64,000 nucleotides of DNA from NCBI RefSeq assembly GCF_007559025.1, contig NZ_CP041765.1, forward strand, positions 124,001 to 188,000. The letters are read 5' to 3'. Position 1 is the stretch's first letter. Each line of letters starts with the position of its first letter. The translations under genes and the position numbers were made by a program. Of the stretch, positions 13,475 to 56,416 are shown piece by piece. This DNA is from Tomitella fengzijianii (lineage in GTDB: Bacteria; Actinomycetota; Actinomycetes; Mycobacteriales; Mycobacteriaceae). The notes beneath the pieces are model-generated. The model worked only from the letters and a program-made list of their open reading frames with translations. It made no database searches and had not been told where the DNA came from.

Positions 13475-14575
13475 TCAGGCGAGGGCGGCGCCGAGCTCGG
13501 CGGCGACGGCGTCGGCGCTGCCGAGCGTGAATGCGATCTGCCGCCCGCGGAGGAAATACCGGTGGATGGGGTAGTCCACGTCCGCGCCGATGCCGCCGTG
13601 CAGATGCTGGGTGGCGTGGACCGCGCGCAGGCCTCCTCGCGACGCCCACCACTTGGCCACCAGCGCGGCGGGTTCCGCCTCCTCCTCGCGCCCGGCGTCC
13701 ATGAGCCAGGCGGCCCGGCAGGCGGTGAGCCGGATGCTCTCCGCGTCGAGGTGGGTGTCGGCGGCGCGCACGGAGACGGCCTGGTTGGTCGAGAGCGCGC
13801 GGCCGAACTGCATCCGCTCGGAGGTGTAGGCGGCGGTCATGGCGAGCGCCTCGGAGCACACTCCCGCGGCGAGGGCCGCCAGCGCGACGCGGGCGCGCCG
13901 CAATGTCCAGGAGACGATGTGCGCGCCGTCGCCGTCCAGCAGGTCCGCCGCGGTGACCGCCACGCCGTCGAGATCGACCGCCGCGTGGCTCTCGTGGCTG
14001 GTGACGTCGACGGCGGTCGTCGTCACCCCGGCGGCGTCGGCGGGGACGACCGCGACGGCGGGCGCGCCGGTCGGCAGTCGCACGGGCAGGACGAACGCCG
14101 CCGCCCGGTCCGCCGCGGGCACGGCGGCGAGGGAGCCGTGCAGGGCCCAGCCGTCGCCGTCGGCCTCGGCCCGGACCGCGAGCCCGGTACCGTCGCCCAC
14201 CTCGAAGGCGCCGGTGAGGACGTGCGATCCCTCGAGGAAACCGGGCAGCCATCGCCGTCGCTGGGCGTCGGTGCCGAACTCGGCCAGCGGGAGCGCCGCG
14301 CCGGCGATGGAGGACCACAGCGGCACTGCCGCCACCCGCCGTCCCTGCTCCTCGAGCAGGGCCACGAGTCCGAGCATGCCCATGCCGGCGCCCCCGGCCG
14401 AATCGGGGAGGGCCACGCCGAGCAGGTCCGCCTCGGCGAGCGCCTGCCAGAGTCCGGCGTCGAAACCACCGGCGTCCTCGACCTCGCGGAGCGCGTCCGC
14501 GGAGGCGCGGGCGGAGAAGATCTGCCGTGCGAGACCGCCGATCGCGGCGTGGTCCTCGGAGAATTCGAATTGCAT
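13475..14575 (-). CDS. Acyl-CoA dehydrogenase, FadE28/ChsE1-like
   Basis: Flavin-dependent acyl-CoA dehydrogenase of 366 residues. The family segment M-Q-F-G-R-x-L-S-T-N-Q-A and the C-terminal H-L-H-G-G-I-G-A-D-V-D-Y-P-I-H-R are clear. It starts two bases after the stop of a second acyl-CoA dehydrogenase. Tandem short/long pairs of this kind form the alpha2-beta2 heteromers known from actinobacterial steroid side-chain oxidation (FadE28-FadE29). The pair with the next gene, and the Ltp2/ChsH-like genes upstream, support that reading; the actual substrate is unproven. Confidence 0.85.
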   Translation of the reverse strand: MQFEFSEDHAAIGGLARQIFSARASADALREVEDAGGFDAGLWQALAEADLLGVALPDSAGGAGMGMLGLVALLEEQGRRVAAVPLWSSIAGAALPLAEFGTDAQRRRWLPGFLEGSHVLTGAFEVGDGTGLAVRAEADGDGWALHGSLAAVPAADRAAAFVLPVRLPTGAPAVAVVPADAAGVTTTAVDVTSHESHAAVDLDGVAVTAADLLDGDGAHIVSWTLRRARVALAALAAGVCSEALAMTAAYTSERMQFGRALSTNQAVSVRAADTHLDAESIRLTACRAAWLMDAGREEEAEPAALVAKWWASRGGLRAVHATQHLHGGIGADVDYPIHRYFLRGRQIAFTLGSADAVAAELGAALA

Positions 14576-14577
14576 GG

Positions 14578-15792
14578 TCAGCGGGCTCCAGACGTGGTGG
14601 GTTCGGCGGTGCGGCGGCGTGCGGCGGTGGTCATGCCGAGGGTCTTGGCGGCGACGATCTCGCGCATCACCTCGTTGGTGCCGCCGCCGAAGGTGTTGTT
14701 CTGGGCGCGGCGCCCCAGCGCCTCGACGCGGCCCTCCAGCGCCGCCCCGGGGCTGCCGGAACGCAGGAGGCCCTTGGCGCCCAGGACTTCCTGAAGTTTG
14801 CCGTAGGCGGTGACGACGCCCTCGGTGCCCATGATCTTGGCGGCCGCGGAGTCGCCGCCGCCGAGCGTGCCCGCAGCGACGTCCGCCACCAGCCGCAGGT
14901 TCATCAGGTCGAGGGCGCTGAGCAGCGCGTACACCTCGGCGAGGTTGCTGCGCACCCACGGCAGGTCGTACACCCGGCCGCCGTCGCCGTGCGGCTCGGC
15001 CTTGGCCCACTCGAGAACCTCGGTCAGCAGCTGGTCGGCGATGCCCGCACGCGCGGCCAGCGCCACGCGTTCGTGGTTGAGCTGGCTGGTGATCAAGCCC
15101 CACCCGCCGCCGAGTTCGCCGACGACGTTGCTCAGCGGAACCCGGACCTCGTCGTAGTAGGTGGCGGAGGTGCTGATGCCGCCGACGGTGCGGATCTCGG
15201 TGACGGAGAAGCCGGGTGCGTCGGTGGGGACCAGCACCACCGAGATGCCCTTGTGCCGTGGGGCTTCCAGGTCGGTGCGCACCGCCAGCCAGATCCAGTC
15301 GGCGTGGATGCCGGCGCTGGTGAAGATCTTGTTGCCGTCGATGACCAGCTCGTCACCGTCCACACGTGCGCGCGTGGTCAGGGAGGCCAGGTCGGTGCCC
15401 GCACCCGGCTCGGTGTAGCCGATGGCGAAGATCAGGTCCCCCGCGAGGATCCGCGGCAGGAAGTAGTCCTTCTGCTCCCGTGTCCCGTGGTGCATGAGGG
15501 CCGGGCCCACCGTGTTGAGCGTGACCAGCGACAGCGGCGCGCCCGCCCGGATCACCTCGTCGTAGAACACGTAGAGGGCCTCCGGGTCCTCGCCGCGCCC
15601 GCCGTACTCGGCGGGCCAGCCGAGTCCCAGCCAGCCGTCGGCGCCCATCTTCCGGAGGATCCGGTCGAACACCGGCCCGCCCTCGGTCTGGTCCATCAAC
15701 GCGCGCCGGTCGTCGTCGTCGATGGTGGCGGCGAAGTACTCGCGCAGCTCGGTGCGTAGCGCCGTGGACGCCGGGGAGAGTTCTGGATGCAT
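14578..15792 (-). CDS. Acyl-CoA dehydrogenase, FadE29/ChsE2-like
   Basis: Acyl-CoA dehydrogenase of 404 residues with the full set of family segments: G-Y-T-E-P-G-A-G-T-D-L-A-S-L near the middle, D-G-N-K-I-F-T-S-A-G, and a C-terminal G-G-G-T-N-E-V-M-R-E-I. I choose ATG 15792 because AGGAG precedes it by eight bases; the frame extends to 15858 without support. It is separated by two bases from the shorter dehydrogenase gene, so a heteromeric enzyme is likely. It would introduce an alpha-beta double bond into a CoA-linked side chain. Confidence 0.87.
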   Translation of the reverse strand: MHPELSPASTALRTELREYFAATIDDDDRRALMDQTEGGPVFDRILRKMGADGWLGLGWPAEYGGRGEDPEALYVFYDEVIRAGAPLSLVTLNTVGPALMHHGTREQKDYFLPRILAGDLIFAIGYTEPGAGTDLASLTTRARVDGDELVIDGNKIFTSAGIHADWIWLAVRTDLEAPRHKGISVVLVPTDAPGFSVTEIRTVGGISTSATYYDEVRVPLSNVVGELGGGWGLITSQLNHERVALAARAGIADQLLTEVLEWAKAEPHGDGGRVYDLPWVRSNLAEVYALLSALDLMNLRLVADVAAGTLGGGDSAAAKIMGTEGVVTAYGKLQEVLGAKGLLRSGSPGAALEGRVEALGRRAQNNTFGGGTNEVMREIVAAKTLGMTTAARRRTAEPTTSGAR

Positions 15793-15854
15793 GTGCGTCG
15801 CTCCTGGTCTGCGGTGCGGTGTTGGGAATGTGCGGAACGTGGGTGCGGGGCCGG

Positions 15855-18095
15855 TCACTGCGGCAGGCGCAGCACCCTGCGGGCGATCACGTTCAGCTGG
15901 ATCTCGATGGTGCCGCCGCCGAAGAGGATCGCGGGCAGCCCCAGGTGATCGGTGGCGTGGTCGTCGAGGGCGTCGTCGGGGACGGCGCCGGGCGGGTGGT
16001 CGTGCACCGCCGCCCGGGGCCCCAGCAGTCGCATCAGGTCCCGCGAGCCGTCACGCTGCGCGATGGCGCTGTAGAGCTTGGCGACGCTGATCTCGGCGCC
16101 GGGCGACCGCCCCGCGACCCGGGCGAGCACCCCGCGCAGGTTCATCGCGTTCAGCGCCAGCTCGCGACTGGTGGCGAGGCCGAGCGCGTGCACCGCGTCG
16201 GCGCGCGCGCAGTCGTGCTCGCCCGCGGCGACGATCCCGCGGATACGCCGGCTGGACCCGTGGCCCTGCGCCCCGCCCATGCGCAGCCGCTCGTTGGCGA
16301 GCGTCATGGTGGCCAGGCGCCAGCCCTCGCCGGGCTCGCCCACCAGGCATTCGTCGGGGACGAAGACGTCGTCGAGGAAGACCTCGTTGAACTCGGCGCG
16401 GCCGGTGGCCTGGCGCAGCGGCCGCACCTCGATGCCGGGGCTGCGCATGTCCACCAGGAAATAGGAGATCCCGCGGTGCTTGGGCGCGGACGGATCGGTG
16501 CGGGCCAGGCACACGCCCCAGTCCGCCTCGTGCGCATACGAGTTCCACACCTTCTGCCCGCGCAGCAGCCAGCCGCCTTCGGTACGGCGGGCTGCGGTGG
16601 ACAGCCCGGCCAGGTCGGATCCCGCGCCCGGCTCGCTGAACAGCTGGCACCAGACGATCTCGCCGCGCAGGGACGGTCCGAGGAACCGCTTCCGCTGCAC
16701 CTCGCTTCCGTGCTCGAGCAGCGTCGGCAGCACCCACTCGCCGATGATCATCGACGGCTGGGAGAGGCCCCGGGCCGCGAACTCCTGCGCGATCACGGCC
16801 TGCTCCTCCGGCCCCGCACCCAGACCGTAGGGCTCCGGGAAGTGCGGGGCGACGAGGCCGGCGTCGGCCAGCGCGGTGCGCGCCGCGTCTCCGCGGGCCG
16901 ATCCCCACCGCACGCTGTCGCGGTCGACGCGGCGGACACCCGGCGTCGCGTCGAGCACCGCTCCCACCCGCGCACGCAGCTCGGGCAGCGCGTCGGGGCC
17001 GACGAAGGTGAAGTCGCGTTCGGCGTCGGCCAGCGTGAGTTCGCCCAGACGGTCCGCCCAGCGATCGGTGGACCCCGCCAGTGCCGCGATGCTCACCGCG
17101 CGGCGCTGGTAGAGGTGGGCATCGTGCTCCCAGGTGTAGCCGACGCCGCCGAGCAGCGCGATGCCCTCGAGCGCGTTGTCCACCGCGCCGCCCAGCGAGG
17201 CCACAGCGGCCTGCGCGGCGGTGATCGCGCGCTGCCCGGAGTCCTGGTCTGCGGCGCGGGCCGCATCCCACGCCGCCGCGCATGCGATCTCCGAGCGCAC
17301 CAGCATCATCGCGGCCTTGTGCTGCACGGCCTGGAAGCTGCCGACAGGGCGGCCGAACTGCTCGCGGGTGCGTACGTGGTCCACCGCGGTGTCCAGGCAC
17401 CAGGTCGCGATCCCCGAGGCCTCCGCCGCGAACAGCACCGCCCGCGCCCACTCGGCATCGCCGTCGTCGACGCCGGGCACCGCGTCGGCGCCGGCCACGC
17501 GGTGCCCGTCCAGCGTGAGCGTGCCGATCGCGCGGGTCAGGTCGACGCCCTTCGCCGCTTCGACCGCGCCGGCCGGAGGCGTGACGCGGAACCACCGGTG
17601 GCCGTTGCCCTCGGCGGCACGCAGCAGCACGACGTCGGCCCCCGGCAGGCCCAGCGACGGCTCGGAGGCCCCGTCGATCTCCCAGCCGCCGTCGACGGCG
17701 CGGGCGGTGAGCGAGCCGCCCGCGCACACCGCCGCTGTGGCCCCGCCCGCGAGCGCGCGCAGCGCCCTGTCGGCCGCGTCGGAGGGCGCGGCCGCGAACG
17801 CGAGCACTGCTCCCGCGTATGCGGTGGGCAGGAACGGGCCGGGGAGCAGTGCTCGGCCGAGCTGCTCGATGACCACCGCCAGTTCGGCGATGCCCGCGCC
17901 GTCGCCGCCGTACGCCTCGGGGATGTGGATCGCGTGCAGCCCCTGGGCGCACAGCCCTTCCCACACCGACGGGCGACCGCCCGCGGCGAACCGCGCGAAG
18001 TCGGCGCGCGCCTCGGCCGGGCCGCCCGCGCGCGCCGCGAACGCCGCGACGGACTCCGCGAGCGCCTTGCGGTCGTCGTCCAGTGCCAATGCCAC
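15855..18095 (-). CDS. Double-domain acyl-CoA dehydrogenase (FadE34-like)
   Basis: Protein of 746 residues made of two acyl-CoA dehydrogenase-like halves. The N-terminal half (about 1-355) includes R-E-Q-F-G-R-P-V-G-S-F-Q-A-V-Q-H-K. The C-terminal half (about 365-746) carries F-S-E-P-G-A-G-S-D-L-A-G-L, R-G-Q-K-V-W-N-S-Y-A and I-L-F-G-G-G-T-I-E-I-Q. Length and build resemble FadE34 (ChsE3), which oxidises the C24 side chain of steroids in mycobacteria. The GTG start is preceded by AGGAG. Neighbours (thiolase, Ltp2-like aldolase, paired dehydrogenases) agree with a side-chain oxidation role. Confidence 0.85.
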   Translation of the reverse strand: MALALDDDRKALAESVAAFAARAGGPAEARADFARFAAGGRPSVWEGLCAQGLHAIHIPEAYGGDGAGIAELAVVIEQLGRALLPGPFLPTAYAGAVLAFAAAPSDAADRALRALAGGATAAVCAGGSLTARAVDGGWEIDGASEPSLGLPGADVVLLRAAEGNGHRWFRVTPPAGAVEAAKGVDLTRAIGTLTLDGHRVAGADAVPGVDDGDAEWARAVLFAAEASGIATWCLDTAVDHVRTREQFGRPVGSFQAVQHKAAMMLVRSEIACAAAWDAARAADQDSGQRAITAAQAAVASLGGAVDNALEGIALLGGVGYTWEHDAHLYQRRAVSIAALAGSTDRWADRLGELTLADAERDFTFVGPDALPELRARVGAVLDATPGVRRVDRDSVRWGSARGDAARTALADAGLVAPHFPEPYGLGAGPEEQAVIAQEFAARGLSQPSMIIGEWVLPTLLEHGSEVQRKRFLGPSLRGEIVWCQLFSEPGAGSDLAGLSTAARRTEGGWLLRGQKVWNSYAHEADWGVCLARTDPSAPKHRGISYFLVDMRSPGIEVRPLRQATGRAEFNEVFLDDVFVPDECLVGEPGEGWRLATMTLANERLRMGGAQGHGSSRRIRGIVAAGEHDCARADAVHALGLATSRELALNAMNLRGVLARVAGRSPGAEISVAKLYSAIAQRDGSRDLMRLLGPRAAVHDHPPGAVPDDALDDHATDHLGLPAILFGGGTIEIQLNVIARRVLRLPQ

Positions 18096-18129: not shown

Positions 18130-19293
18130 CTAGATCCGTTCGAGGATGACGGCGGTGGTCGATGCGGAGGCGCAGATCGCGACGAGCGCGGTGTTCTGAT
18201 CGCGCCGCTCCAGCTCGTCGAGCGCCGTCGCGAGCAGGCGGATGCCGGTGGCGCCCGCGGGGTGCCCGACGGCGATCGCGCCGCCGTTGACGTTCAGCCG
18301 GTCCTCGGCCACCCCGTGCACCTGCGCGAACGACATCGGCACTGCGGCGAACGCCTCGTTGACCTCGACGAGGTCGACGTCCTCGATCGTCATGCCGACG
18401 CGGTCGAGCACGGTCGCCCCCGCCTCGATCGGCGCGTCGAGCAGGTAGGTGGTGTCCCCGCCGACGATGCACTGCGCGAGGATGCGGGCCCGCGGCCGGA
18501 CGCCGAGCTCCCGTGCCCGGGTCTCGGACATGAGTACCGCCGCGCTGGCGCCGTCGGAGACCTGCGACGAGGTGCCGGCGGTGTGCAGCCCGCCCTCCTT
18601 GACCGGCCGCAGCCGCGCCAGCGCGTCCATCGACGTCTCCCGCAGGCCCTGGTCGCGGGTGATCACCGCGGGACCCCCGCCCTCGTCGGCGGGCGGCGCG
18701 GTCACCGGGATGATCTGGCCGTCCAGCCGGCCCGCGTCCCACGCGGCCCGGGCGCGCTGCTGGGACCGGAGGCCGTACGCGTCCAGGTCCGTCCGGGTGA
18801 AGCCGCGGCGCGCGGCGATGCGGTCCGCGCCGGTGTACTGGTCGGGGGAATCCACGGACCACGATGCGGGGCGCGGCGAGCCCAGGCCCCGGCCCTGCTT
18901 GGCGGTCAGCGGGGCGCGCGTCATCAGCTCCACGCCGCACGCGACGCCCACGTCCATGGCGCCGAGCGCGATCTGCCCGGCGGCGAGCTGCACCGCGCGC
19001 TGGGCGGTGCTGCACTGGGCGTCGATGGTGGTGGCGCCGGTGCGCTCCGGGAGTCCGGCGTGCAGCCAGGCGGTGCGGGCGATGTGCCCGTACTGCTCGC
19101 CGAGCGGCGTGACGCAGCCGCCGATCACTTCCTCCACCAGCGCGGGGTCGACGCCCACACGGTCGAGGACGCCGCGCTGCGCGGTGCCCAGCAGCTCCGC
19201 GGCGTGCACCGTGGACAGCCACCCGCCGCGCTTGCCGAACGGCGTGCGCGCCAGGTCCACGATCACCGGACGGGCCGGCGCGGGCGCCGTCAC
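18130..19293 (-). CDS. Acetyl-CoA acetyltransferase-like thiolase (FadA5-like), altered C-terminal motif
   Basis: Thiolase of 387 residues, expected to cleave a beta-ketoacyl-CoA. The nucleophilic cysteine C94 lies in D-A-Q-C-S-T-A-Q; N-E-A-F and G-H-P-A-G-A-T-G are present. The final C-x-G-x-G motif of typical thiolases reads C-A-S-A-S: the cysteine is kept but both glycines are replaced, so the second half of the reaction may be altered. The GTG start overlaps the stop of the DegT-type gene (GTGA). Context makes it the side-chain thiolase of this operon, comparable to FadA5. Confidence 0.85.
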   Translation of the reverse strand: MTAPAPARPVIVDLARTPFGKRGGWLSTVHAAELLGTAQRGVLDRVGVDPALVEEVIGGCVTPLGEQYGHIARTAWLHAGLPERTGATTIDAQCSTAQRAVQLAAGQIALGAMDVGVACGVELMTRAPLTAKQGRGLGSPRPASWSVDSPDQYTGADRIAARRGFTRTDLDAYGLRSQQRARAAWDAGRLDGQIIPVTAPPADEGGGPAVITRDQGLRETSMDALARLRPVKEGGLHTAGTSSQVSDGASAAVLMSETRARELGVRPRARILAQCIVGGDTTYLLDAPIEAGATVLDRVGMTIEDVDLVEVNEAFAAVPMSFAQVHGVAEDRLNVNGGAIAVGHPAGATGIRLLATALDELERRDQNTALVAICASASTTAVILERI

Positions 19294-20501
19294 CGGAACG
19301 ACTCCGCGAACCGGCGGATGCTCTCGGCGACGCGCTTCACCTCGGCGTCGGTCAGCCCGTGGCTCATGCCCAGCGTCATGCCCCGCTCGAAGACGGCGTC
19401 GGTCTCCGGCAGGCCCTCCGGCGGCTGCCGGTGCTCGACGCCGGACATCATCGGGTGCCGCAGCAGATTGCCGCTCCACACCGTGCGGGTGTCGATCCCG
19501 TCGCCCTCCAGCGCCTCCTGCAGGTCGCTTCGGGTGAACGGCGCGTCGGCGTTGACCATCACCGGGTAGCACAGCCAGGCGGTGTCCAGGCCGCTCTGCT
19601 CGACCGGGGTGGTGAAGAACTCCGGGAACTCCGCGTAGGCGGCGGTGTAGGCGGCCCAGGTCTCCTTGCGCCGCACGTAGTTCGCGGCGAGCTTGTTCAG
19701 CTGCACCACCCCGTACGCGGCACCCAGCTCGGAGGGCTCGAAGTTCCACGGGACGACGTCGAAGATGAAGTCGTTGTCGTAGTCGACGCCGTCGAGCTGT
19801 TCGCGGAACACCCGGCCCACGTGCTTGGTGCTGCCGTACAGATTCGGCTCGCTGCGGCGGCCCCAGCGCCGCAGCAGCAGCGCCTTGTCGCGCTCCTCCT
19901 CGCTGTCGACCATGACCATCCCGCCGTTGCCGGCGCAGGTGATGATGTGGGCCATCGAGAAGCTGGTGACGGAGATATCGGCGCGCGCGCCGGTGGGGCG
20001 CCCGTGCAGCGTGGGCCCCAGCGCGTCGCACGAGTCCTCGATGACCTTGAGCCCGTGCCGGTCGGCGATCTCCCGGACGGCGTCCCAGTCGGGGGCGTTG
20101 CCGGCGAGGTTGGGCAGCAGGATCGCGCGGGTCTTGTCGCTGATCATCGCCTCGATCTTCGCCGCGTCGGCGTTGAAGGTGTTCGGCTCGACGTCGACGA
20201 ACACGGGGACCAGCCCGGCCCGGATGATCGGGGCGACGTCGGTGGAGAACGTCAGCGCCGAGGTGATGACCTCGCTGCCCTTCGGCAGGCCCAGCAGCTC
20301 GACGGCGAGGTAGAGCGCCGACGAGCCCGAGTTGCACATCGCGCCGTATGCCTTGCCGCTGAGCGCGGGCACGCGCTCCTCCATCTCGGCGACGTTCGGG
20401 CCGATGCGCAGGCCCTGGCTTCCGCTGCGCAGCACGTCGACGACGGCCTGGATCTCCTCCTCACCGTGGGTGGCGCGGGCGTAGGTGATGCGGTCTGTCA
20501 T
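19290..20501 (-). CDS. DegT/DnrJ-fold PLP enzyme of the sugar 3-dehydratase (ColD/E1-like) type, His replaces Lys
   Basis: PLP/PMP-dependent enzyme of 403 residues. The fold-type I frame is intact: N-S-G-S-S-A at 57-62, the cofactor-binding D156 in I-E-D-S-C-D-A-L-G. At the position of the Schiff-base lysine the sequence reads S-F-S-M-A-H-I-I-T, so H185 replaces the lysine. This substitution marks the deoxysugar 3-dehydratases ColD and E1/RfbH, which remove a hydroxyl next to a ketone instead of transferring an amino group. The cysteines of the E1 iron-sulfur cluster are absent, so ColD is the closer parallel. No sugar-nucleotide gene is near. It sits between an Ltp2-like aldolase and a thiolase and its stop overlaps the thiolase start. 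Confidence 0.85.
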   Translation of the reverse strand: MTDRITYARATHGEEEIQAVVDVLRSGSQGLRIGPNVAEMEERVPALSGKAYGAMCNSGSSALYLAVELLGLPKGSEVITSALTFSTDVAPIIRAGLVPVFVDVEPNTFNADAAKIEAMISDKTRAILLPNLAGNAPDWDAVREIADRHGLKVIEDSCDALGPTLHGRPTGARADISVTSFSMAHIITCAGNGGMVMVDSEEERDKALLLRRWGRRSEPNLYGSTKHVGRVFREQLDGVDYDNDFIFDVVPWNFEPSELGAAYGVVQLNKLAANYVRRKETWAAYTAAYAEFPEFFTTPVEQSGLDTAWLCYPVMVNADAPFTRSDLQEALEGDGIDTRTVWSGNLLRHPMMSGVEHRQPPEGLPETDAVFERGMTLGMSHGLTDAEVKRVAESIRRFAESFR

Positions 20502-20531: not shown

Positions 20532-21713
20532 TCAGTGGTCGGCGGAGAGGACGAGGGCGCTGTGCGGTACGGGGGAACCGCCGGTGACCAGGACGTTCGC
20601 GAGGTCCTTGGCCGGCTGGTTGACCGAAGTGCCGCGGATCAGCCGCACGGCCTCGGCGATCCCGTTGACGCCGTGGATGTATCCCTCGCCGAGCTGGCCT
20701 CCGTTGGTGTTGACCGGCAGCCTGCCGTCGAGCTCCAGGTTGCCGTCCGCGATGAAGTCCTTGGCCTCGCCTCGTCCGCAGAACCCGTACTCCTCCAGCT
20801 GAAGCAGCACCATGGGGGTGAACGCGTCGTAGAGGATCGCGGCGTCGATGTCGGCGGTGCCCAGCCCGGACTGCTCCCACAGCTGCTCCGCGACCAGCCG
20901 CACCTCGGGCATGTCGTCGATGTCATCGCGGTAGTAGCTGCTCATCGAGATCTGCTGGGGGCCCACGCCTTGCGCGGCGGCGGAGATCACCGCCGGGGGG
21001 TGCGGAAGGTCGCGGGCCCGCTCGGCGCTGACGATCACCAGCGCCTGGCCGCCGTCGGACTCCTGGCAGCAGTCGAGCAGCCGGATCGGGTCGGCGATCA
21101 TGCGCGAGGCCTGGTGGTCCTCGATGGTGATGGGGCGCTCGTAGAACCACGCCGCCGGGTTGTTCGCCGCATGCTTGCGTGAGAGAACGGAGATCGCCCC
21201 GAAGTCGGCGCTGGTGGCCCCGTAGCGGTGCATGTAGAGCTGCGCGAGGAACGCCTCCTGCTGGGCCGGGGTGAGCAGCCCGTAGGGGTTGATCCAGTTG
21301 CGGTACTCCTGATCGGTGTTCTGGTTGTAGGCGAAGGCGGGCGGGCCGGCGCCGAAGCGGTGGCCCGAGCGCTCGTTCATAGCGCGGTAGACCACGACCA
21401 CGTCGGCGACCCCGGAGGAGACGGCCAGCGCCGCCTGCTGCACCGGCGCGCACGCTCCGCCGCCGCCGTGCGGGATGCGGCTGAAGAACTTCAGTTGCGG
21501 GATGCCGAGCGAGCGGGCGACGGCGATCTCCGGGTTGTTCTCCATGGTGAACAGGGAGACGCCGTCGACCTCGTCGACGCCGATCTGCGCGTCGTCAAGC
21601 GCCGCGAGCACGCACTCACACGCCAGCTGCCACTCGCTGCGGCCGGAGTTCTTCGAGAATTCGGTGGCGCCGATGCCCGCGATCGCGGCGGCGCCGGACA
21701 GTCCGCTGCTCAT
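20532..21713 (-). CDS. ltp2: Ltp2-like steroid side-chain aldolase (thiolase-superfamily lipid-transfer protein)
   Basis: Thiolase-fold protein of 393 residues of the SCP-x/lipid-transfer group. It resembles Ltp2, which performs retro-aldol cleavage of a beta-hydroxy steroid-CoA together with the DUF35 domain of ChsH2. Y295 (in L-Y-D-A-F-T) and Y345 (in G-E-G-Y-I-H-G) fall at positions like those of the catalytic tyrosines described for Ltp2, from memory of that work. The gene overlaps the MaoC-like gene upstream by ATGA, and a separate DUF35 gene is two genes away, as the model requires. The exact substrate is not known. Confidence 0.8.
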   Translation of the reverse strand: MSSGLSGAAAIAGIGATEFSKNSGRSEWQLACECVLAALDDAQIGVDEVDGVSLFTMENNPEIAVARSLGIPQLKFFSRIPHGGGGACAPVQQAALAVSSGVADVVVVYRAMNERSGHRFGAGPPAFAYNQNTDQEYRNWINPYGLLTPAQQEAFLAQLYMHRYGATSADFGAISVLSRKHAANNPAAWFYERPITIEDHQASRMIADPIRLLDCCQESDGGQALVIVSAERARDLPHPPAVISAAAQGVGPQQISMSSYYRDDIDDMPEVRLVAEQLWEQSGLGTADIDAAILYDAFTPMVLLQLEEYGFCGRGEAKDFIADGNLELDGRLPVNTNGGQLGEGYIHGVNGIAEAVRLIRGTSVNQPAKDLANVLVTGGSPVPHSALVLSADH

Positions 21714-22138
21714 CGCGCGGCTCCTTCCGGGGATACGGCCGAGTCGACCGGTGCGACGGTCACCTGCGCCGTGACGTGGACGCCGCGCGCGTTGCTGCCG
21801 TGCACCCGCACGGTCACCGCGTCGCCGTCGAGCCCGGTGACCTCGCCCGTGAAGGTCATCGTGTCACCGGGGAAGTTCGGCACCCCCAGGCGCAGAGAGG
21901 TTCTCGTGATTCGTGACGCGGGCCCGGACCAGTCGGTGATGTACCGGTCGAGCAGGCCGTTGGTGGTGTTGATCGACATGAAGATGTCGGGCGTGCCGCG
22001 GTCGCGCGCCTTGCCCGGGTCGTGGTGGACGTCCTCGAAGTCCTGCGAGGCGATGGCGGCGCCGACGATCAGCGTCCGGTCCAGCGGGATCTCCAGCGGC
22101 GGGAGGGCGTCGCCGATCGTGCAGCGGGGCATGCTCAT
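21710..22138 (-). CDS. MaoC-like hotdog hydratase subunit, ChsH1-like
   Basis: Single hotdog-fold protein of 142 residues. The segment D-F-E-D-V-H-H-D-P (33-41) matches the active-site region of ChsH1, which with ChsH2 hydrates the double bond of a CoA-linked steroid side chain. It overlaps the DUF35 gene upstream and the Ltp2-like gene downstream by ATGA junctions. The second hotdog partner is encoded two genes upstream. It is expected to work as a heteromer. Confidence 0.82.
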   Translation of the reverse strand: MSMPRCTIGDALPPLEIPLDRTLIVGAAIASQDFEDVHHDPGKARDRGTPDIFMSINTTNGLLDRYITDWSGPASRITRTSLRLGVPNFPGDTMTFTGEVTGLDGDAVTVRVHGSNARGVHVTAQVTVAPVDSAVSPEGAAR

Positions 22139-22581
22139 CGCGGCTCACCGTCCCCGCGCCGGCGGAGCTGCGGCAGCACCTCGCCATGCGCGTGCTCCGC
22201 GAAGCCCACCTCCAGTTCCATCCCGAACTCGAGATCGGCGTGGTCGATGCCGGCGATGTCCGCCACCAGCCGGGTGCCCTCTTCCAGGTCCACGAGCCCG
22301 ACGGCCAGCGGATAGTCGAAAGCGGGGTCCTTGGGATGGTGCAGCACCGTGTAGCTGTGCAGGGTGCATCGGCGCGCGGACTCGACCGTGTCCCACTTCA
22401 TCGAGCGGCAGTGCGGGCAGGACGGCGACGGCGGATGCCGGAGCGTCTCGCACTCGGTGCAGCGCTGGATCTCCAAGCGGCCCTCGCGCGCCGCGGCGAA
22501 GAAGAACTCGTTGTCCTGTGTGATCGTCAGCCGCGGCACCCCGGTGTGCGGCGTGGCGTCCGGGCTTTGCTGCGCGTTCAC
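22135..22581 (-). CDS. DUF35 OB-fold protein with zinc ribbon (ChsH2 C-terminal-like)
   Basis: Protein of 148 residues. A rubredoxin-like zinc ribbon has C41, C44, C55 and C58, and an OB-fold follows (H-S-Y-T-V-L-H-H-P onwards). In mycobacteria this domain is fused to a hotdog domain as ChsH2 and is needed for Ltp2 activity. Here it is a free-standing gene. The GTG start overlaps the stop of the hotdog gene upstream (GTGA) and its stop overlaps the next start, so the set is translated as a coupled block. Confidence 0.85.
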   Translation of the reverse strand: MNAQQSPDATPHTGVPRLTITQDNEFFFAAAREGRLEIQRCTECETLRHPPSPSCPHCRSMKWDTVESARRCTLHSYTVLHHPKDPAFDYPLAVGLVDLEEGTRLVADIAGIDHADLEFGMELEVGFAEHAHGEVLPQLRRRGDGEPR

Positions 22582-23168
22582 GCGGCGCCCTCCTTGCGTG
22601 TCGGGTCGAATCGGAGGAGGCGGAAGCGTTCCTCGACGAGAAGCGCGTCGCCCTGATCCAGGTACCGCTTGAGGAGGGTGATGAAGCACCCGCGGCCCAG
22701 TGCGGTCTGTTTGATCGGCGAGATCGACTCGATGGTGAAGTGGCAGGTGACGTGGTCGCCTGGGCGCAGTTCCGCGTGATAGTCCTGCTCGACGTCGGTG
22801 GCGACCACGGACGTGAACCCGGCCGCGTCCAGCTCGGACAGCAGCTGCGAGTACGCGAAGTCCTCGGTGACGCCCTCGGCGCGGAGCCGGTGGATCTCCC
22901 GATGCCGGCGGTAGCCGGCCATCACCCACGTCGAGATCATCGCGGGCGGGCAGACCACGTCGGGTCGGCCTGTGGCCTTCGCGGCCGCGCGGTCGACGTA
23001 GACGGGGTTGAAGTCGTCGTGCGCCTCCGCCCAATTGCGGATCATCGCCTCGTTGACGGCGTAGCGCGCCACCCGCGGCGGCTCCGCCTCCCGGCCGACG
23101 TAGGCGGCGAATCGCTGCCCCGGGTCGTCCACGGCGGCACCGTCGGGTTGCGCCTTCAGGTTTTCCAC
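22578..23168 (-). CDS. MaoC/FAS1-type hotdog protein, ChsH2 N-terminal-like
   Basis: Hotdog-fold protein of about 196 residues, first gene of the operon. The segment H-D-D-F-N-P-V-Y-V-D has Tyr where catalytic hydratases have His, as expected for the non-catalytic partner in the ChsH1-ChsH2 dimer. The start is best placed at GTG 23168 because GGAGG lies five bases upstream; an ATG at 23201 opens a longer frame but has no ribosome site. A KstR2-type operator and promoter lie 42 bp upstream. Confidence 0.8.
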   Translation of the reverse strand: MENLKAQPDGAAVDDPGQRFAAYVGREAEPPRVARYAVNEAMIRNWAEAHDDFNPVYVDRAAAKATGRPDVVCPPAMISTWVMAGYRRHREIHRLRAEGVTEDFAYSQLLSELDAAGFTSVVATDVEQDYHAELRPGDHVTCHFTIESISPIKQTALGRGCFITLLKRYLDQGDALLVEERFRLLRFDPTRKEGAA

Positions 23169-23209
23169 ATGCACCTCCGGCTCTCGGTGATCCCGTTCCA
23201 TCAGAGTTG

Positions 23210-23223
23210 AGCAAGCGCTTGAT
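23210..23223. promoter_or_regulatory. KstR2-type operator AGCAAGCGCTTGAT
   Basis: The site matches AnCAAGnnCTTGnT, the motif described for the mycobacterial regulator KstR2, at every fixed position, with a perfect 10-bp core CAAGCGCTTG. It lies between the leftward operon and the rightward TetR gene and overlaps the predicted -10 region of the leftward promoter, a position that would give repression. Confidence 0.75.
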
Positions 23224-23399: not shown

Positions 23400-23984
23400 A
23401 TGGGGACCACTGGAGACCGGAGGGAGGCGATCCTGTCGGGCTCGGCGGAGCTGTTCGCAGCCAAGGGCGTCGCGGGCACCACCGTGCGCGACATCGGCGA
23501 GGCGGCCGGGGTGTTCTCCGGCAGCCTCTACCACTACTTCAAGTCCAAGGACGCGATCGTCGATGAGCTGATGCGCGGGTTCATGACCGACGTCCAGGCG
23601 CGGTTCGATCGCGTGGAGAAGGCCGCGGCCGATCCGGAGGGCGTCGTGCGCGGGCTGATCCGGGAGACGCTGGAGGTGATCGAGGCCTATCCGCACCAGA
23701 CGGCGATCTACCAGCGGGACCGGGCGTACCTGCGCGATCACGGGCTGCTGGACCCGGTCGACGACGTGTCGAGGGGAATGCGCGGGTACTGGCTGACGGC
23801 GATCCGGCGTGGGGCGGAGCAGGGCGTGTTCCGTTCGGACATCCCGCCGGAGATCTTCTACCGGTCCGTCCGCGACACGCTGTGGTCCACCATGCACTGG
23901 CCGGACCGGCGGAACCATTCCACGGAGGAGTTCGCCGAGCTGATGGCGTCCCTGTTCCTCGGCGGCTTCCACTCCGGGCGGTGA
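23400..23984 (+). CDS. KstR2-like TetR regulator
   Basis: TetR regulator of 194 residues. The helix-turn-helix T-T-V-R-D-I-G-E-A-A-G-V-F-S-G-S-L-Y-H-Y-F and the following D-E-L-M-R-G-F segment are very close to KstR2 of Mycobacterium, which releases DNA on binding a steroid-derived CoA thioester. GGAGG four bases before ATG 23400 fixes the start; the frame is open from 23229. It diverges from the side-chain operon over an operator that fits KstR2, and a similar site precedes the solute-binding protein gene downstream. Its ligand is probably a CoA intermediate of the local pathway. Confidence 0.85.
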   Translation: MGTTGDRREAILSGSAELFAAKGVAGTTVRDIGEAAGVFSGSLYHYFKSKDAIVDELMRGFMTDVQARFDRVEKAAADPEGVVRGLIRETLEVIEAYPHQTAIYQRDRAYLRDHGLLDPVDDVSRGMRGYWLTAIRRGAEQGVFRSDIPPEIFYRSVRDTLWSTMHWPDRRNHSTEEFAELMASLFLGGFHSGR

Positions 23985-24237: not shown

Positions 24238-25851
24238 ATGAGATCGAACCGACGAGCGTTGGTGCGGCTGGGAGCGGTCGCGGCGGCCGCGGCGCTTCTG
24301 GCCACGGGATGCGCGAACTCCGGCGATTCTGCGGGCGGCGACTCATCGGCGACCGCGGTCGCGGACCTCCAGGACGGCATGGTCAACGTCGCCGAAGCCG
24401 AGGGGGAACCTGTCGAGGGCGGCGAGCTCAGCTTCGCCGCGTACTCCGAGCCCAAGGCGGTCGACCCGGCCAAGACCATCGCAGCGGTGACCACCGGTGG
24501 CCTCGAACTCGTGAACGTCTACGACTCGCTGATGCGCTATGACACGGAGTCGCAGTCGGTGGTGCCGCAGATGGCGGAAGGCCTCACGCACTCGGACGAC
24601 TATCGGACGTGGACGATGACGTTGCGTGACGGCGTGGAGTTCTCCGACGGGACCCCGCTCGACGCGGCGGCCGTGAAGGCGAGTCAGGAGCGCTATGCGC
24701 AGGCCAAAGGGCCGGAAGCCGGACTGTGGACGGCGAACGTCGCGGGCATCTCCACCCCGGATGAGCGCACGGTCGTCTACGAGCTCGACAAGACGTGGCC
24801 GGAGTTCGACGTGATGCTCACCTCCGGGCCCGGAATGATCGTCGCACCGTCGGCGGGACCTCCGGGCGAGGGTTTCACGCCCATCGGCGCCGGCCCGTTC
24901 ACCCTCGGGGAATGGCGCCAGGGCGAGTCGATGACGCTCAAGGCCAACCCGGACTATTGGGGCGGCAAGCCGCATCTCGACGCGGTGAAGGTGGTGTACA
25001 TGCCCACGATGGAGGTGTCCAAGGAGACGTTCTTCAACGACGGTGTCGACATGACGTTCGTCCGCGAGCCCGATGACGTCACCGAGTTGCTGGGCAAGAA
25101 CCTGCCGGGCTACGTCAACATGACGTCCGCCGCGAACACCTACATCATCAACGCGGCTCCGGGCCGTCCGGGATCGGACCCGCGCGTACGCAAGGCGATT
25201 CAGCTTGCGACCGACCCGTCCGTGCTGGCGCAGCGCGCGTATGGCGACCCGGAGTACGGCGAGAGCGAGTTGTTCCCGGAATACTCGCGCTGGCACACCG
25301 ACGCCGCAGGACCGGAGTTCGATCCGGAGCGGGCGAAGAAGCTCGTCGCCGAAGCGAAGGCCGACGGGGTCGGCACCACGCTCGTCTCGATCAACTCGCC
25401 CGAGCAGGCGCGCCAGCAGCAGGCGCTGGCGTTGGAGGCGCAGCTCGAAGCAGTCGGGTTCGACGTCGACACCAAGATCATGCCCACCATCGGCGACCAG
25501 ATCCGGGTCATCGGCTCCGAACGGAACTACGACTTGGGCGCCTGGGGGCTGTCGTACCGCGAGTCGGACCCGTTCGCCAAGATGTTCGACACCATGCACA
25601 GCGGAGGCAAACAGCTCTACGGGATGTCCACCAGCCCGGAGATGGACGTTTTGGTGGACCAGTTCCAGACTGCCACGGACAAGGATGCGAAGCTGCAGGC
25701 GATGGCGCAGATCCAGCAGCAGGTGAACGAGGACGTGCCGTTCATCAACATCGGCTATTTCGCCGAGTACACCGCCTGGCATGACAACGTGCATGGTGTG
25801 GAGGGCAGCTCGAACTCCATGATCCTGCTCGGCGACGCGTGGAAGGCGTGA
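24238..25851 (+). CDS. Peptide/nickel-type (SBP family 5) solute-binding lipoprotein
   Basis: Extracellular solute-binding protein of 537 residues. A twin-charged signal peptide ends in the lipobox L-A-T-G-C with C25 as the lipidated residue. The body has the SBP_bac_5 features G-G-E-L-S-F-A-A-Y-S, V-D-P-A-K-T and L-R-D-G-V-E-F-S-D-G-T-P-L-D-A. GAGGAAGGA precedes the ATG. No permease or ATPase gene lies nearby, so it is an orphan binding protein. It is a paralogue of the one at 35856-37463. Its gene overlaps the acyl-CoA synthetase gene, suggesting that it captures the acid that the synthetase activates. Confidence 0.88.
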   Translation: MRSNRRALVRLGAVAAAAALLATGCANSGDSAGGDSSATAVADLQDGMVNVAEAEGEPVEGGELSFAAYSEPKAVDPAKTIAAVTTGGLELVNVYDSLMRYDTESQSVVPQMAEGLTHSDDYRTWTMTLRDGVEFSDGTPLDAAAVKASQERYAQAKGPEAGLWTANVAGISTPDERTVVYELDKTWPEFDVMLTSGPGMIVAPSAGPPGEGFTPIGAGPFTLGEWRQGESMTLKANPDYWGGKPHLDAVKVVYMPTMEVSKETFFNDGVDMTFVREPDDVTELLGKNLPGYVNMTSAANTYIINAAPGRPGSDPRVRKAIQLATDPSVLAQRAYGDPEYGESELFPEYSRWHTDAAGPEFDPERAKKLVAEAKADGVGTTLVSINSPEQARQQQALALEAQLEAVGFDVDTKIMPTIGDQIRVIGSERNYDLGAWGLSYRESDPFAKMFDTMHSGGKQLYGMSTSPEMDVLVDQFQTATDKDAKLQAMAQIQQQVNEDVPFINIGYFAEYTAWHDNVHGVEGSSNSMILLGDAWKA

Positions 25852-27476
25852 CGCCGGGGCGCCCGGGCGTGGCGCGGGCACCGGAGACGCTCCCCGTGAT
25901 CCACGGGGAGGACGTGCACGGAAGGCGGATGCCCGTGTTCGCCGACCGGGACCGCTCGCTGGTGGACATGCTGGAACGCTCACGCGCGCACGGCGATCGC
26001 GTCTACCTGGTCTGCGACGGACGGCGGGTCACCTTCGCCGAGCACTACCGGATGGTCGCCGCGCTGGCCGGGGAGCTCCGCGACCGGTACGGGGTGGGGC
26101 CGGGGGACCGGGTGGGGATCCTGGCCGCCAACAGCATCGAGTGGATCGTGACCTTCTGGGCGACGGCATCTCTGGGCGGGATCGCCGTTGCAATGAACTC
26201 GCACTGGGCGGTGGGCGAGATCGCCTACTCATGCGGGCATGTCCGGCCGTCGGTGATCGTCGCCGACGAGCGCCGCCGCGAGCGCCTCGCGAAGGCCGCG
26301 GCGGAGTGGCCGGCGGCACGGGTGCCGATGCTGGCCATCGAGTCCGACCTCGTCGACATCGGCGCGGCGCCCGGCGCCGCCGAGTCGCCCGGAGTACGTC
26401 TGGCGGAGGACGACCCGGCCGTGATCATCTACACCTCGGGCACGACCGGGAAGCCCAAGGGCGTCGTGCATTCGCATCGGAACCTCATCGCCGCCCGCGA
26501 CTTCTACCGCTACAACGACGCGGCCGCGGCCGCAGCGGGTGCGCCGCAGTCCGAACGCCGCTACCTGATGACCAGTCCGCTGTTCCACATCGCCGCGCTG
26601 CACAACGTGGCGGTGCCCCGTCTCGACAACGGGGAGACAGCGGTGATCGCCACGGGGCGTTTCAGCGTGGACCGCGTGCTGGAGCTCATCGAGCGCGAAG
26701 ACGTCACGCACTGGACCGGCGTACCCACGATGGCGCACCGGCTGCTCGAGGAAGGCAACGCCGCGGGCCGCGACCTGTCGTCACTGCGTTCGTTCTCGCT
26801 CGGCGCGGCGCCGACTCCGCCCGCGATGCGTGCCGCCCTGCGTGAGTTGCTGCCGCAGGCCACCTCTTCTATGGTCGCGACCTACGGGCAGACGGAGTGC
26901 GCCACCGCCGCGACGATCGCCACGCCGGCGCAGTTGGCGGCGAACCCGCGCTCGGTCGGCCGCGCCGCGGTGAACACGCAGATCCGCGTCTGCGACGACG
27001 ACGGCGTGACGGTGCCGGACGGCGTCGAGGGCGAGGTGTGCGTGCGCGGCGCGGTGGTGATGCTCGGCTACTGGGACGACCCCGAGGCCACGGCGCGGAC
27101 CATCGATGGCGACGGGTGGCTGCACACCGGGGACATCGGCGTGCTCCGGGACGGCGAGCTGGAGATCAACTCGCGCCGCAGCGACCTGATCATCCGCGGC
27201 GGCGAGAACATCTACCCCGTGGAGGTGGAGGACGCCCTGGACACCCACCCGGGCGTGGCCGAGTCGATCGTGTTCGGCAGCCCCAGCGCGGAGTACGGGC
27301 AGGAGGTGGCGGTCGTGGTCGTGCTGCGGGACGGCGCCGAGGCCGACCACGATGCGTTGCGGACCCACCTGGCGGGCCTCGTCGCCGGATACAAGATCCC
27401 GTCGTCCTGGACGGTGAGCACCGAGCCGCTGCCGCGCAACGCGACGGGCAAGGTCGTACGCAGCGCATTCACCTGA
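25848..27476 (+). CDS. Acyl-CoA synthetase (AMP-forming, FadD-like)
   Basis: Adenylate-forming ligase of about 542 residues that couples a carboxylic acid to CoA. The AMP-binding motif Y-T-S-G-T-T-G-K-P-K-G lies near residue 195; T-Y-G-Q-T-E, D-G-W-L-H-T-G-D and the C-terminal lysine in P-R-N-A-T-G-K-V are all present. I place the start at GTG 25848, overlapping the stop of the binding protein gene; GTG 25839 is also possible. The KstR2-type site upstream of the pair suggests a steroid-like or other branched acid substrate, comparable to FadD3/FadD17, but this is not shown. Confidence 0.88.
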   Translation: MTPGRPGVARAPETLPVIHGEDVHGRRMPVFADRDRSLVDMLERSRAHGDRVYLVCDGRRVTFAEHYRMVAALAGELRDRYGVGPGDRVGILAANSIEWIVTFWATASLGGIAVAMNSHWAVGEIAYSCGHVRPSVIVADERRRERLAKAAAEWPAARVPMLAIESDLVDIGAAPGAAESPGVRLAEDDPAVIIYTSGTTGKPKGVVHSHRNLIAARDFYRYNDAAAAAAGAPQSERRYLMTSPLFHIAALHNVAVPRLDNGETAVIATGRFSVDRVLELIEREDVTHWTGVPTMAHRLLEEGNAAGRDLSSLRSFSLGAAPTPPAMRAALRELLPQATSSMVATYGQTECATAATIATPAQLAANPRSVGRAAVNTQIRVCDDDGVTVPDGVEGEVCVRGAVVMLGYWDDPEATARTIDGDGWLHTGDIGVLRDGELEINSRRSDLIIRGGENIYPVEVEDALDTHPGVAESIVFGSPSAEYGQEVAVVVVLRDGAEADHDALRTHLAGLVAGYKIPSSWTVSTEPLPRNATGKVVRSAFT

Positions 27477-30669: not shown

Positions 30670-31791
30670 ATGCGTACCAGGGGAGCCGTCATCACGCAGG
30701 CGCCGGGCAAGTTCGAGGTGGTGGACCTGGAGCTGGACGAGCCGCGCCGCGACGAGATCATGGTGCGCATGGCCGCCTCGGGCCTGTGCCACTCGGACGC
30801 GCACATCGCGGCAGGCGACCACGCGGTGCACAACTACCCGATCTGCGGCGGCCACGAGGGCGCGGGCGTCGTGGAGCGAGTGGGCCCGGGAACGGAGGGC
30901 TTCACGGTGGGCGATCACGTGGTGTTCTCGTTCCTCGCGGCGTGCGGCAAGTGCCGGTGGTGCGCGTCGGGCATGCAGAACCTGTGCGACCGGGGTGCCG
31001 CGATCATGACCGGCGGGCGGCCGGACGATCCCGACAGCCACCGCATGCTCCTCGACGGCGCCCCGGTGGGGCAGACGTGCGGGCTGGCGACCTTCAGCGA
31101 ATACACCACGGTGCACGTGGACAACGCGATCAAGGTGCAGGACAAGTCGCTGCCGCTGGACCGGCTGTGCCTGCTCAGCTGCGGCGTGGGCACCGGCTGG
31201 GGCGCGGCCGTCAACTCGGCGCGCGTCTACCCGGGGCAGACGGTGATCGTCATGGGCACCGGCGGCGTGGGCATCAACGCCGTCCAGGGCGCGGCGCACG
31301 CGGGCGCGTCGCGGATCATCGCGGTCGACCCGGTGGCCTTCAAGCGCGAGAGCGCGCTGCGCCTGGGCGCCACCCACGCCGTGGCCGACGTCGAGGAGGC
31401 CGCCGAGCTGGCCCGCACCTTCACCAACGGGCAGGGCGCCGATGCCGCGATCGTCACCGTCGGCAACACCACCGGCGAGCACATCGCGGCCGCCTTCTCC
31501 TCGATCCGCAAGGCCGGCGTGTGCGTCGTGACGGGCCTGGGGAAGATGTCCGACGTGGGGCTGCCCATCAGTCCCCTGGAGCTGACGCTGTATCAGAAGT
31601 CGCTGGTGGGATCCCTGTTCGGCGCGTCCAACCCCACCGTCGACATCCCCTGGATGATCGACATGTACACCGCCGGGAAGCTGGAACTGGACTCGCTGGT
31701 CACCAACACCTACACGCTCGACGAGGTGGCGAAGGGGTTCGAGGACATGGAGGCGGGGGTGAACCTGCGCGGCGTGATCGTGTTCGACTGA
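30670..31791 (+). CDS. Zinc-dependent alcohol dehydrogenase (NDMA-dependent-like)
   Basis: Medium-chain alcohol dehydrogenase of 373 residues. Catalytic zinc ligands C40 and H62-E63 and the structural zinc cysteines C92, C95, C98 and C106 are all present, as is the nucleotide-binding G-T-G-G-V-G. The sequence style (SGLCHSDAH, CGGHEGAG) fits the class III/NDMA-dependent alcohol dehydrogenases of actinobacteria. GAGGAGA precedes the ATG. Its divergent partner is the aldehyde dehydrogenase. The substrate, probably an aryl or alkyl alcohol, cannot be told. Confidence 0.88.
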   Translation: MRTRGAVITQAPGKFEVVDLELDEPRRDEIMVRMAASGLCHSDAHIAAGDHAVHNYPICGGHEGAGVVERVGPGTEGFTVGDHVVFSFLAACGKCRWCASGMQNLCDRGAAIMTGGRPDDPDSHRMLLDGAPVGQTCGLATFSEYTTVHVDNAIKVQDKSLPLDRLCLLSCGVGTGWGAAVNSARVYPGQTVIVMGTGGVGINAVQGAAHAGASRIIAVDPVAFKRESALRLGATHAVADVEEAAELARTFTNGQGADAAIVTVGNTTGEHIAAAFSSIRKAGVCVVTGLGKMSDVGLPISPLELTLYQKSLVGSLFGASNPTVDIPWMIDMYTAGKLELDSLVTNTYTLDEVAKGFEDMEAGVNLRGVIVFD

Positions 31792-46977: not shown

Positions 46978-46980
46978 CGA

Positions 46981-48693
<1,713 letters not shown>

Positions 48694-48747
48694 CGGGGGA
48701 ACCTCTCGGGTCGCTGCCTTGGGGAGCACGTATGCGATGCACATCAC

Positions 48748-48784
48748 TCTACATCAATACGGTGGAACGTCAATGAACTGTAGA
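48748..48784. promoter_or_regulatory. Box operator A, TCTACA-N25-TGTAGA (boxC/paaX)
   Basis: Perfect 6-bp inverted repeat with arms 31 bp apart (start to start), in the AT-rich part of the divergent boxC/paaX region, 55 bp upstream of the boxC start. The same element recurs before all other operons of the island. Inferred PaaX site. Confidence 0.7.
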
Positions 48785-48891
48785 ATGAAAAGTGGTGCGA
48801 TAGCGTAGGACGCACGTCTTGCTGCGGCGGGCGGACCACGCCGCGCGAACGGCCGGGCCGCGGCCGCCGATCACCGGCGAAAGGAGCCGAG

Positions 48892-49749: not shown

Positions 49750-49767
49750 AGCGTCGGCCGGGCGTAT

Positions 49768-50679: not shown

Positions 50680-50690
50680 GGCGCGGGTCG

Positions 50691-52172: not shown

Positions 52173-52233
52173 GGTGAACTCCTTGCGGTGTGCGCGGTGG
52201 GGGCGGTGTGCGCTGTCTGCCGGATATGCATAG

Positions 52234-52271
52234 TCTACAGAACTATGACGTGACGTCTAGTGGTCTGTAGA
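52234..52271. promoter_or_regulatory. Box operator B, TCTACAGA-N22-TCTGTAGA (boxB)
   Basis: Perfect 8-bp inverted repeat; the TCTACA and TGTAGA arms are 26 bases apart, one more than at the other sites. It lies 62 bp upstream of the boxB start. Inferred PaaX site. Confidence 0.7.
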
Positions 52272-52274
52272 ACA

Positions 52275-54131: not shown

Positions 54132-54172
54132 GGCGGCCTCTCCGGGTGTGGGGTGCATCACGTTCATTATGC

Positions 54173-54209
54173 TCCACAGTGCGGTGACGACATGCAATAC
54201 GAATGTAGA
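54173..54209. promoter_or_regulatory. Box operator E, TCCACA-N25-TGTAGA (feruloyl-CoA synthase-like gene)
   Basis: Same spacing as site A with one changed base in the left arm. It lies 42 bp upstream of the ligase start. Inferred PaaX site. Confidence 0.55.
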
Positions 54210-54292
54210 TGAAGATGGGACCGTAACGCCCGGATCAGCGCCTTCCGCAGCTGATCGCGACTACGATGGGCTGGGAGCGGCCCCGGATTCCG

Positions 54293-54377: not shown

Positions 54378-54420
54378 CAGGGGACGGGATGGCGCTGCGT
54401 TGGATGCTGAAGGGAGCCTC

Positions 54421-54762: not shown

Positions 54763-54776
54763 GCGCCGCGCCGCGC

Positions 54777-54840: not shown

Positions 54841-54853
54841 ACGGGGGCTACTG

Positions 54854-56416
<1,563 letters not shown>

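Follow-up and report, generated by a model that had tools for sequence, protein, structure and literature searches.

Introduction

To our knowledge, the removal of a hydroxyl group from carbon by enzymes using pyridoxamine 5'-phosphate (PMP) is known only from deoxysugar biosynthesis; in a steroid-catabolic branch, this chemistry would be put to a new use. The hydroxyl group of an alpha-hydroxyketone cannot be lost by simple beta-elimination, and therefore steroid degraders would need special chemistry for its removal. The igr operon of cholesterol catabolism consists of chsE1-chsE2-chsH1-chsH2-ltp2. Here we describe a gene for a putative PMP-dependent dehydratase at positions 19290 to 20501 of a 64,000-nucleotide stretch of Tomitella fengzijianii DNA (contig NZ_CP041765.1, positions 124,001 to 188,000; the whole stretch is hereafter the window). 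The gene, referred to below as the PLP gene after pyridoxal 5'-phosphate (PLP), is located in an operon of steroid side-chain type.

Among the deoxysugar enzymes, a [2Fe-2S] cluster is present in E1 and SpnQ but not in ColD, and the catalytic His acts as both base and acid (accessible part of PMC8987622). A study of estriol from 2025 (PMC12502722, in its accessible sections) described strains that form 16alpha-hydroxyestrone from estriol, as well as a consortium where estrone was detected too, and postulated oxidation of estriol by a hydroxysteroid dehydrogenase followed by removal of the C16-OH by a dehydroxylase or dehydratase, the enzyme not being named in those sections. According to the same sections, such dehydroxylation was, to those authors' knowledge, unreported in microbial estrogen metabolism. 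No relevant report linking DegT proteins to steroids was found in the open-access literature. The cholate (cas) cluster of Nocardioides simplex was set aside as a precedent, DegT, aminotransferase and pyridoxal being unmentioned in the accessible main text, and nothing on C16 was found in the accessible part of the tomatine degradation literature.

Results

Identification of a histidine-type DegT protein

In a first-pass annotation of the window, the open reading frame at 19290 to 20501 was proposed to encode a DegT-fold dehydratase with His in place of the Schiff-base lysine. The reading frame was borne out; it lies on the minus strand, which the annotation had left unstated, and its product is 403 amino acid residues long. 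With the Pfam model DegT_DnrJ_EryC1 it scored 278.9 bits (cut-off 19.8), making the product a member of the DegT/DnrJ/EryC1/StrS family. Both segments named in the annotation are present, S180-F-S-M-A-H185-I-I-T around the putative catalytic residue and E155-D-S-C-D-A-L-G162 for the cofactor. In HMMER alignments, H185 stands opposite His220 of E1 (3bcx) and opposite the catalytic lysine of perosamine synthase (3bn1). The alignment with ColD differs by one residue between programs: ColD has two adjacent His residues, the first of which is catalytic, and H185 falls on this one in MAFFT but on the other in HMMER. The nearest solved structure by sequence is the E1 dehydrase of cytidine diphosphate (CDP)-sugar metabolism (180 bits), and the E1 entries 3bb8 and 3bcx also ranked first in Foldseek with a predicted model of moderate quality (predicted local distance difference test, pLDDT, 69.8; below 50 at residues 183 to 191 around His185).

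Residues were compared in an alignment of the window protein with 38 relatives of 50–88% identity (39 rows) plus E1 and four RfbH-like proteins; 26 loci repeating an already sampled genome were excluded from this count and from the tree. His occupies the catalytic position in 39/39 rows, and thus His185 is not a chance substitution. The counterparts of E1 His220, Asp191, Cys193 and Asp194 are conserved in all 39 rows. Cys251, Cys253 and Cys261 of E1 are found in 0/39 family rows versus 4/4 RfbH-like rows; together with Cys193 these are, as we take it, the four [2Fe-2S] ligands of E1. One other lysine, K50, is invariant in the family; N57 in the NSGSS loop follows it seven residues later.

The tree comprised 56 rows, 45 of His-type and 11 of Lys-type, SpnQ not being among them. 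The His-type rows stood apart from the Lys-type rows with support of 100/100, and the 39 family rows formed a single clade (100/99). A Lys-type DegT aminotransferase was rejected on the basis of this split and of the His in every family row. Alignment, tree and residues thus support the view that the window protein is a His-type enzyme resembling the PMP dehydratases. Since three of the four E1 Fe-S cysteines are absent in 39/39 rows, a ColD-like cycle, free of reductase and recycled by glutamate, is favoured as a better model than E1-like turnover. No E3-like electron partner was found among the family-scanned neighbours.

Organization of the steroid operon

The minus-strand genes follow from the promoter in the order MaoC-like, DUF35, ChsH1-like, Ltp2-like, PLP, FadA5-type thiolase, fused acyl-coenzyme A (CoA) dehydrogenase and two further acyl-CoA dehydrogenases. 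As the annotation had noted, an Ltp2-like aldolase gene (20532 to 21713, minus strand) precedes the PLP gene, its end lying 30 bp upstream; its product scored 645.6 with the NCBIfam lipid-transfer protein model PRK07855 (cut-off 469) and matched best, among PDB entries, the lipid-transfer protein 6ok1_A (T. curvata Ltp2; 559 bits). Ltp2 carries paired tyrosines, with the catalytic Tyr in a YDHF motif, and prefers C3 side chains (accessible part of PMC12329534). The window protein has Tyr at the place of this motif, as Y295 in YDAF. Its Y345, in GEGYIHG, is presumably the counterpart of the second tyrosine, and because Tyr is kept at both places, the product should be a 17-ketosteroid, judging from the family and these residues. 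The Ltp2 clade of the operon (at least 79% identity) reads YDAF, and the Ltp2 homologues compared at 58–71% read YDHF. With alanine at this place, the enzyme could accommodate a further substituent near C16/C17; YDAF is also found in locus L117, which has no PLP gene.

The coupling to a thiolase was likewise confirmed, as the TGA stop codon of the PLP gene and the GTG start codon of the thiolase gene (18130 to 19293, minus strand) share GTGA at 19290 to 19293. The product is assigned as a steroid 3-ketoacyl-CoA thiolase of FadA5 type (NCBIfam NF005889, 572.1; cut-off 515). Further downstream on the same strand are the fused two-domain acyl-CoA dehydrogenase (15855 to 18095; Pfam), an acyl-CoA dehydrogenase (14578 to 15858) with best matches to PDB entries 6wy8_B (Tcur3483; 430.7 bits) and 4x28_A (373.7), which we take to be steroid-CoA dehydrogenases of ChsE4/ChsE5 type, and a third acyl-CoA dehydrogenase with an approximate start (13475 to 14593; Pfam). 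Upstream of the Ltp2-like gene, and also on the minus strand, are the genes for a ChsH1-like MaoC hydratase subunit (21710 to 22138; PDB 4wnb_B, Hydratase ChsH1, 122.1 bits), for a DUF35/OB protein that resembles the C-terminal part of ChsH2 but is a separate gene (22135 to 22581; Pfam OB_ChsH2_C and zf-ChsH2; PDB 6ok1_B, 129.1 bits), and for a MaoC-like protein of uncertain start codon that is probably the N-terminal part of ChsH2 as its own gene (22578 to 23201; Pfam FAS1_DH_region, 67.9, and synteny). Beyond the regulator gene described below, a CasG-like steroid-24-oyl-CoA synthetase is predicted on the plus strand (25839 to 27476), its NF052580 score of 721.9 bits being just under the cut-off of 750; its relatives in L013 (901) and L117 (775) exceed this cut-off. 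The presence of Ltp2, ChsH1/H2, a FadA5-type thiolase and steroid-type dehydrogenases, on family and PDB matches, supports the predicted setting in a steroid side-chain operon. In agreement with the annotation, no sugar-nucleotide genes were recognized among the family-scanned window genes, which cover about 9 to 32 kb plus three genes at 45 to 52 kb.

A putative KstR2 operator

The KstR2 operator motif AnCAAGnnCTTGnT was taken from the accessible part of PMC3068626. An exact match, AGCAAGCGCTTGAT, was found in the divergent promoter at 23210 to 23223 (plus strand) as the only one in the window versus 0.02 expected. Among relatives with a readable promoter, 22/24 carried such a site. Because the genome-wide count (4 sites) equals that of the reversed control (4), single sites are weak and the argument for the operator rests on its conservation. 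The divergent TetR gene (23400 to 23984, plus strand; start approximate) encodes a KstR2-like repressor (PDB 4w97, KstR2, 124.7 bits; the next named regulator is Mce3R, 60.1 bits), which shares 35% identity with the KstR2 proper of the same genome. The latter is located in a cluster with two KstR2 operators and a CoA-transferase subunit nearest to 6co6, which we take to be IpdA. With both the motif and a KstR2-like TetR protein present, regulation of KstR2 type is predicted. The Lcin1 and KstR motifs gave no match in the promoter regions compared.

Conservation of the operon and distribution of the family

A search for related loci yielded 26 loci, of which L027 is outside such an operon; in the other 25, the presence of each gene within loci of up to 21 kb was counted at set identity thresholds. 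The 25 loci span Rhodococcus, Tomitella, Geodermatophilus, Blastococcus, Nocardioides, Nocardia and Streptosporangium. Ltp2, the thiolase and all three dehydrogenases are present in 25/25, the two MaoC genes and DUF35 in 24/25 (L010 being cut by its contig), the TetR gene in 23/25, and a short-chain dehydrogenase/reductase (SDR), designated SDR9, in 21/25. The placement is unusual for the SDR9 match in L012 and the thiolase in L008. SDR9 does not lie between the genes in the window, L008, L012, L014 and L019, and L023 appears to hold a frame-disrupted copy. The annotation had suggested examining linkage in relatives: synteny of the operon was seen in these 25 loci, and no deoxysugar cluster was recognized in related loci, where many flanking genes lay outside the family scan. 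The KstR2-like operator, the SDR following the PLP gene in most relatives and the loss of the Fe-S cysteines are features beyond that annotation.

With the window genome counted, the PLP family was found in 9/397 genomes of the order sample (at 1e-120) and 6/396 genomes of the phylum sample (at 1e-100). Ltp2 of the operon clade (at least 79%) occurs in 6/397 order genomes, 114 genomes matching at 1e-150, and five of these six also carry the PLP gene. Outside the 25 loci, SDR9 accompanies the PLP gene in 3/13 family loci (L055, L070 and L071). One of the 13, L030, is a locus of 4 kb, and its 39-kb surroundings (L051/L052) also lack SDR9.

Clues to the substrate

The sixth genome with operon-clade Ltp2, G283, keeps the operon and the operator in L117 without the PLP gene; its best PLP homologue is of Lys-type and 32% identical, and the SDRs of the locus are only about 30% identical to SDR9. 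The side-chain pathway thus seems to run without the PLP gene and SDR9. In a sister subclade represented by six rows in the tree, KstD is located near 4/6 members, without side-chain genes in the stretch examined. The KstD near L056 and L079 scored over the cut-off, and the homologues in L080 and L081 are 87–91% identical to that of L056; the SDR neighbouring these members is not SDR9. In the same subclade, L027 is close to a mycofactocin-type SDR, an aldo-keto reductase and a flavin mononucleotide (FMN) monooxygenase, and L055 holds the PLP gene, SDR9, a fused dehydrogenase and two amidohydrolase-family genes but no Ltp2. In L070 and L071 the PLP gene is accompanied by SDR9, and side-chain genes are absent from the 20 kb examined; L078 holds PLP, Ltp2 and a CasI-like ligase together, and the sole steroid-type match of L072 is a KstD-like gene far under the cut-off. 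Because L117 lacks the PLP gene and the KstD-linked members lack side-chain genes, a ring ketone flanked by a hydroxyl fits better as substrate than an acyl-CoA. Of the two substrates that the annotation had put forward, a keto-hydroxy acyl or a steroid intermediate, the steroid thus fits as a ring ketone and the acyl option is weakened.

L079 (1984 to 11226) holds an SDR, GH3, an alpha-L-rhamnosidase, MFS and LacI genes next to the PLP gene and, at a greater distance, KstD, and is possibly a steroidal-glycoside locus; its GH3 is nearest to an exo-alpha-L-arabinopyranosidase model (906, below the cut-off of 1300). No relative of the rhamnosidase or GH3 was found in the other loci compared. Among eight Ltp2-operon genomes, the rhamnosidase domain was absent from G000, G002, G004, G020, G117, G190 and G244 and found six times in G140. 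A link to steroidal saponins was rejected, the glycosidases being confined to L079 among the loci compared and the domain absent from 7/8 of these genomes.

Other gene clusters of the genome

An aerobic benzoyl-CoA (box) pathway is predicted at 45379 to 57263 of the window (BoxB, 762.6; cut-off 499.1); a nearby AMP-binding CoA ligase and a crotonase-type gene were taken as other box genes by reading only. An N,N-dimethyl-4-nitrosoaniline (NDMA)-dependent alcohol dehydrogenase is located at 30670 to 31791 (542.9; cut-off 440). A second steroid side-chain cluster of the same genome, L050 (G000:C1:3848000-3867000), contains CasG (940.3, over the cut-off) together with a CasI-like ligase, an Ltp2 at 58% accompanied by another Ltp-like gene, ChsH-like genes and MmgE/PrpD; no PLP gene was seen there.

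Discussion

Proposed reaction

We consider it somewhat probable, from gene content and residues, that the protein is a PMP-dependent dehydratase (dehydroxylase) acting on an alpha-hydroxyketone of a steroid. The ketone would arise from a vicinal diol by oxidation of one of its hydroxyls by an SDR, or would be supplied by Ltp2, the usual product of which is a 17-ketosteroid. PMP would form a ketimine with the steroid ketone, His185 would remove the C4' proton and the hydroxyl on the adjacent carbon would depart; hydrolysis of the enamine would then yield the deoxygenated ketone, and glutamate would convert PLP back to PMP, as in ColD, with no need of an E3-type reductase. Since the natural ketone in this operon is at C17, the C16-OH beside it is our leading, though tentative, guess for the site; C2/C3 and C6/C7 are further candidate sites.

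A broader and more doubtful proposal is that the family represents the missing bacterial steroid dehydroxylase, in which an SDR and a PMP dehydratase form a two-gene module clearing ring hydroxyls beside ketones; it was rated lower because SDR9 occurs in so few of the family loci outside the operon. Such a module may convert 16alpha-hydroxyestrone to estrone, or may act on 16-hydroxy-17-ketones from sapogenin-like sterols. If true, the chemistry of E1 and ColD moves from sugar biosynthesis into catabolism.

Several observations weigh against a steroid dehydratase. At the position of E1 Tyr217, 26 of the 39 rows have Ser and the other 13 have Ala. In the tree, the family clade, the E1/RfbH rows and ColD join in an unresolved fork, and the row of ColD is partial, on a branch of 3.38. 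The PLP gene is dispensed with in L117, all but one of the four KstD-linked members belong to a single genus, and the deepest members (L073 and L074) have no recognized steroid gene nearby. In G020 (L051/L052) the PLP gene is followed directly by two dehydrogenases, without thiolase or fused dehydrogenase in 39 kb. SDR9 is missing from 10/13 family loci outside the 25, in the stretch examined, and from the window operon itself, the best match in its genome being 36–37%; Tomitella would thus depend on Ltp2 or a different enzyme for the ketone. The estriol transformers in the accessible sections of PMC12502722 belong to other genera.

Three other explanations were weighed. The same mechanism could serve on the A or B ring, removing a 2-OH by a 3-ketone (2,3-diol sapogenins, ecdysteroids) or a 6-OH by a 7-ketone (hyocholic/muricholic type). 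KstD, a ring-A enzyme, is near four of the six sister-subclade members, the CasG-like ligase suits bile-acid-like substrates, and L079, itself KstD-linked, holds an alpha-L-rhamnosidase and GH3 in its cluster as a saponin degrader might; however, both glycosidases were found in L079 alone, and the best-supported ketone of the operon is that at C17, which Ltp2 would make to judge from its family. We regard this alternative as unlikely. Quite unlikely, in our estimate, is a side-chain dehydratase that takes an alpha-hydroxyl off a 22-keto acyl-CoA (20-OH or 23-OH, in chains of ecdysteroid or brassinosteroid type) and thereby enables cleavage by the overlapping thiolase. The order Ltp2-PLP-(SDR)-thiolase, the GTGA overlap and the synteny in 25 loci would agree with it, but the side-chain operon and operator of L117 do without PLP and SDR9, and in the four KstD-linked members and L070/L071 side-chain genes are absent from the 20 kb examined.

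The His-type scaffold might also have been turned to a reaction other than dehydration, as a ketosteroid transaminase, ketol isomerase or epimerase. SpnQ transaminates without reductase, but ColD and E1 gave no transamination under similar conditions (accessible part of PMC8987622). In the family E1 Tyr217 is not conserved, but E1 His220 and Asp194 are invariant, and such a function appears very unlikely to us. Dehydration of a steroid alpha-hydroxyketone is the reaction that we prefer.

Comparison with known systems

E1/RfbH is closest to the window family by sequence and fold, and shares His220, Asp191, Asp194 and Cys193 with it. The family differs in lacking Cys251, Cys253 and Cys261, in Ser or Ala for Tyr217, in a one-residue insertion after the His loop and in its steroid rather than CDP-sugar context; the NCBIfam RfbH model scored 269, under its cut-off of 423. 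With ColD the family has in common His for Lys and the lack of an Fe-S cluster, judged here by the missing ligands only, and ColD is likely the mechanistic model (accessible part of PMC8987622). The identity to ColD is, however, about 25%, the counterpart of E1 Asp194 is Asp159 in the window protein and Glu in ColD, the alignment of the His loop is uncertain by one position, and no guanosine diphosphate (GDP)-sugar genes were recognized among the genes scanned.

The same set of enzyme types is found in the window operon as in the igr operon. The window operon differs in its distinct Ltp2 clade (YDAF), split ChsH2 and fused dehydrogenase, in adjoining a KstR2-like repressor and in the inserted PLP gene, usually with SDR9 in the relatives. 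The estriol C16 dehydroxylation postulated in PMC12502722 resembles the proposed reaction in requiring a dehydrogenase and the removal of a hydroxyl beside the C17 ketone; it differs in the organisms concerned and in having no gene assigned in the accessible sections. The pair of SDR and PMP enzyme offers a definite candidate for a step of this kind, and the operon supplies handles on it in the form of the gene, a partner that often accompanies it and a probable operator.

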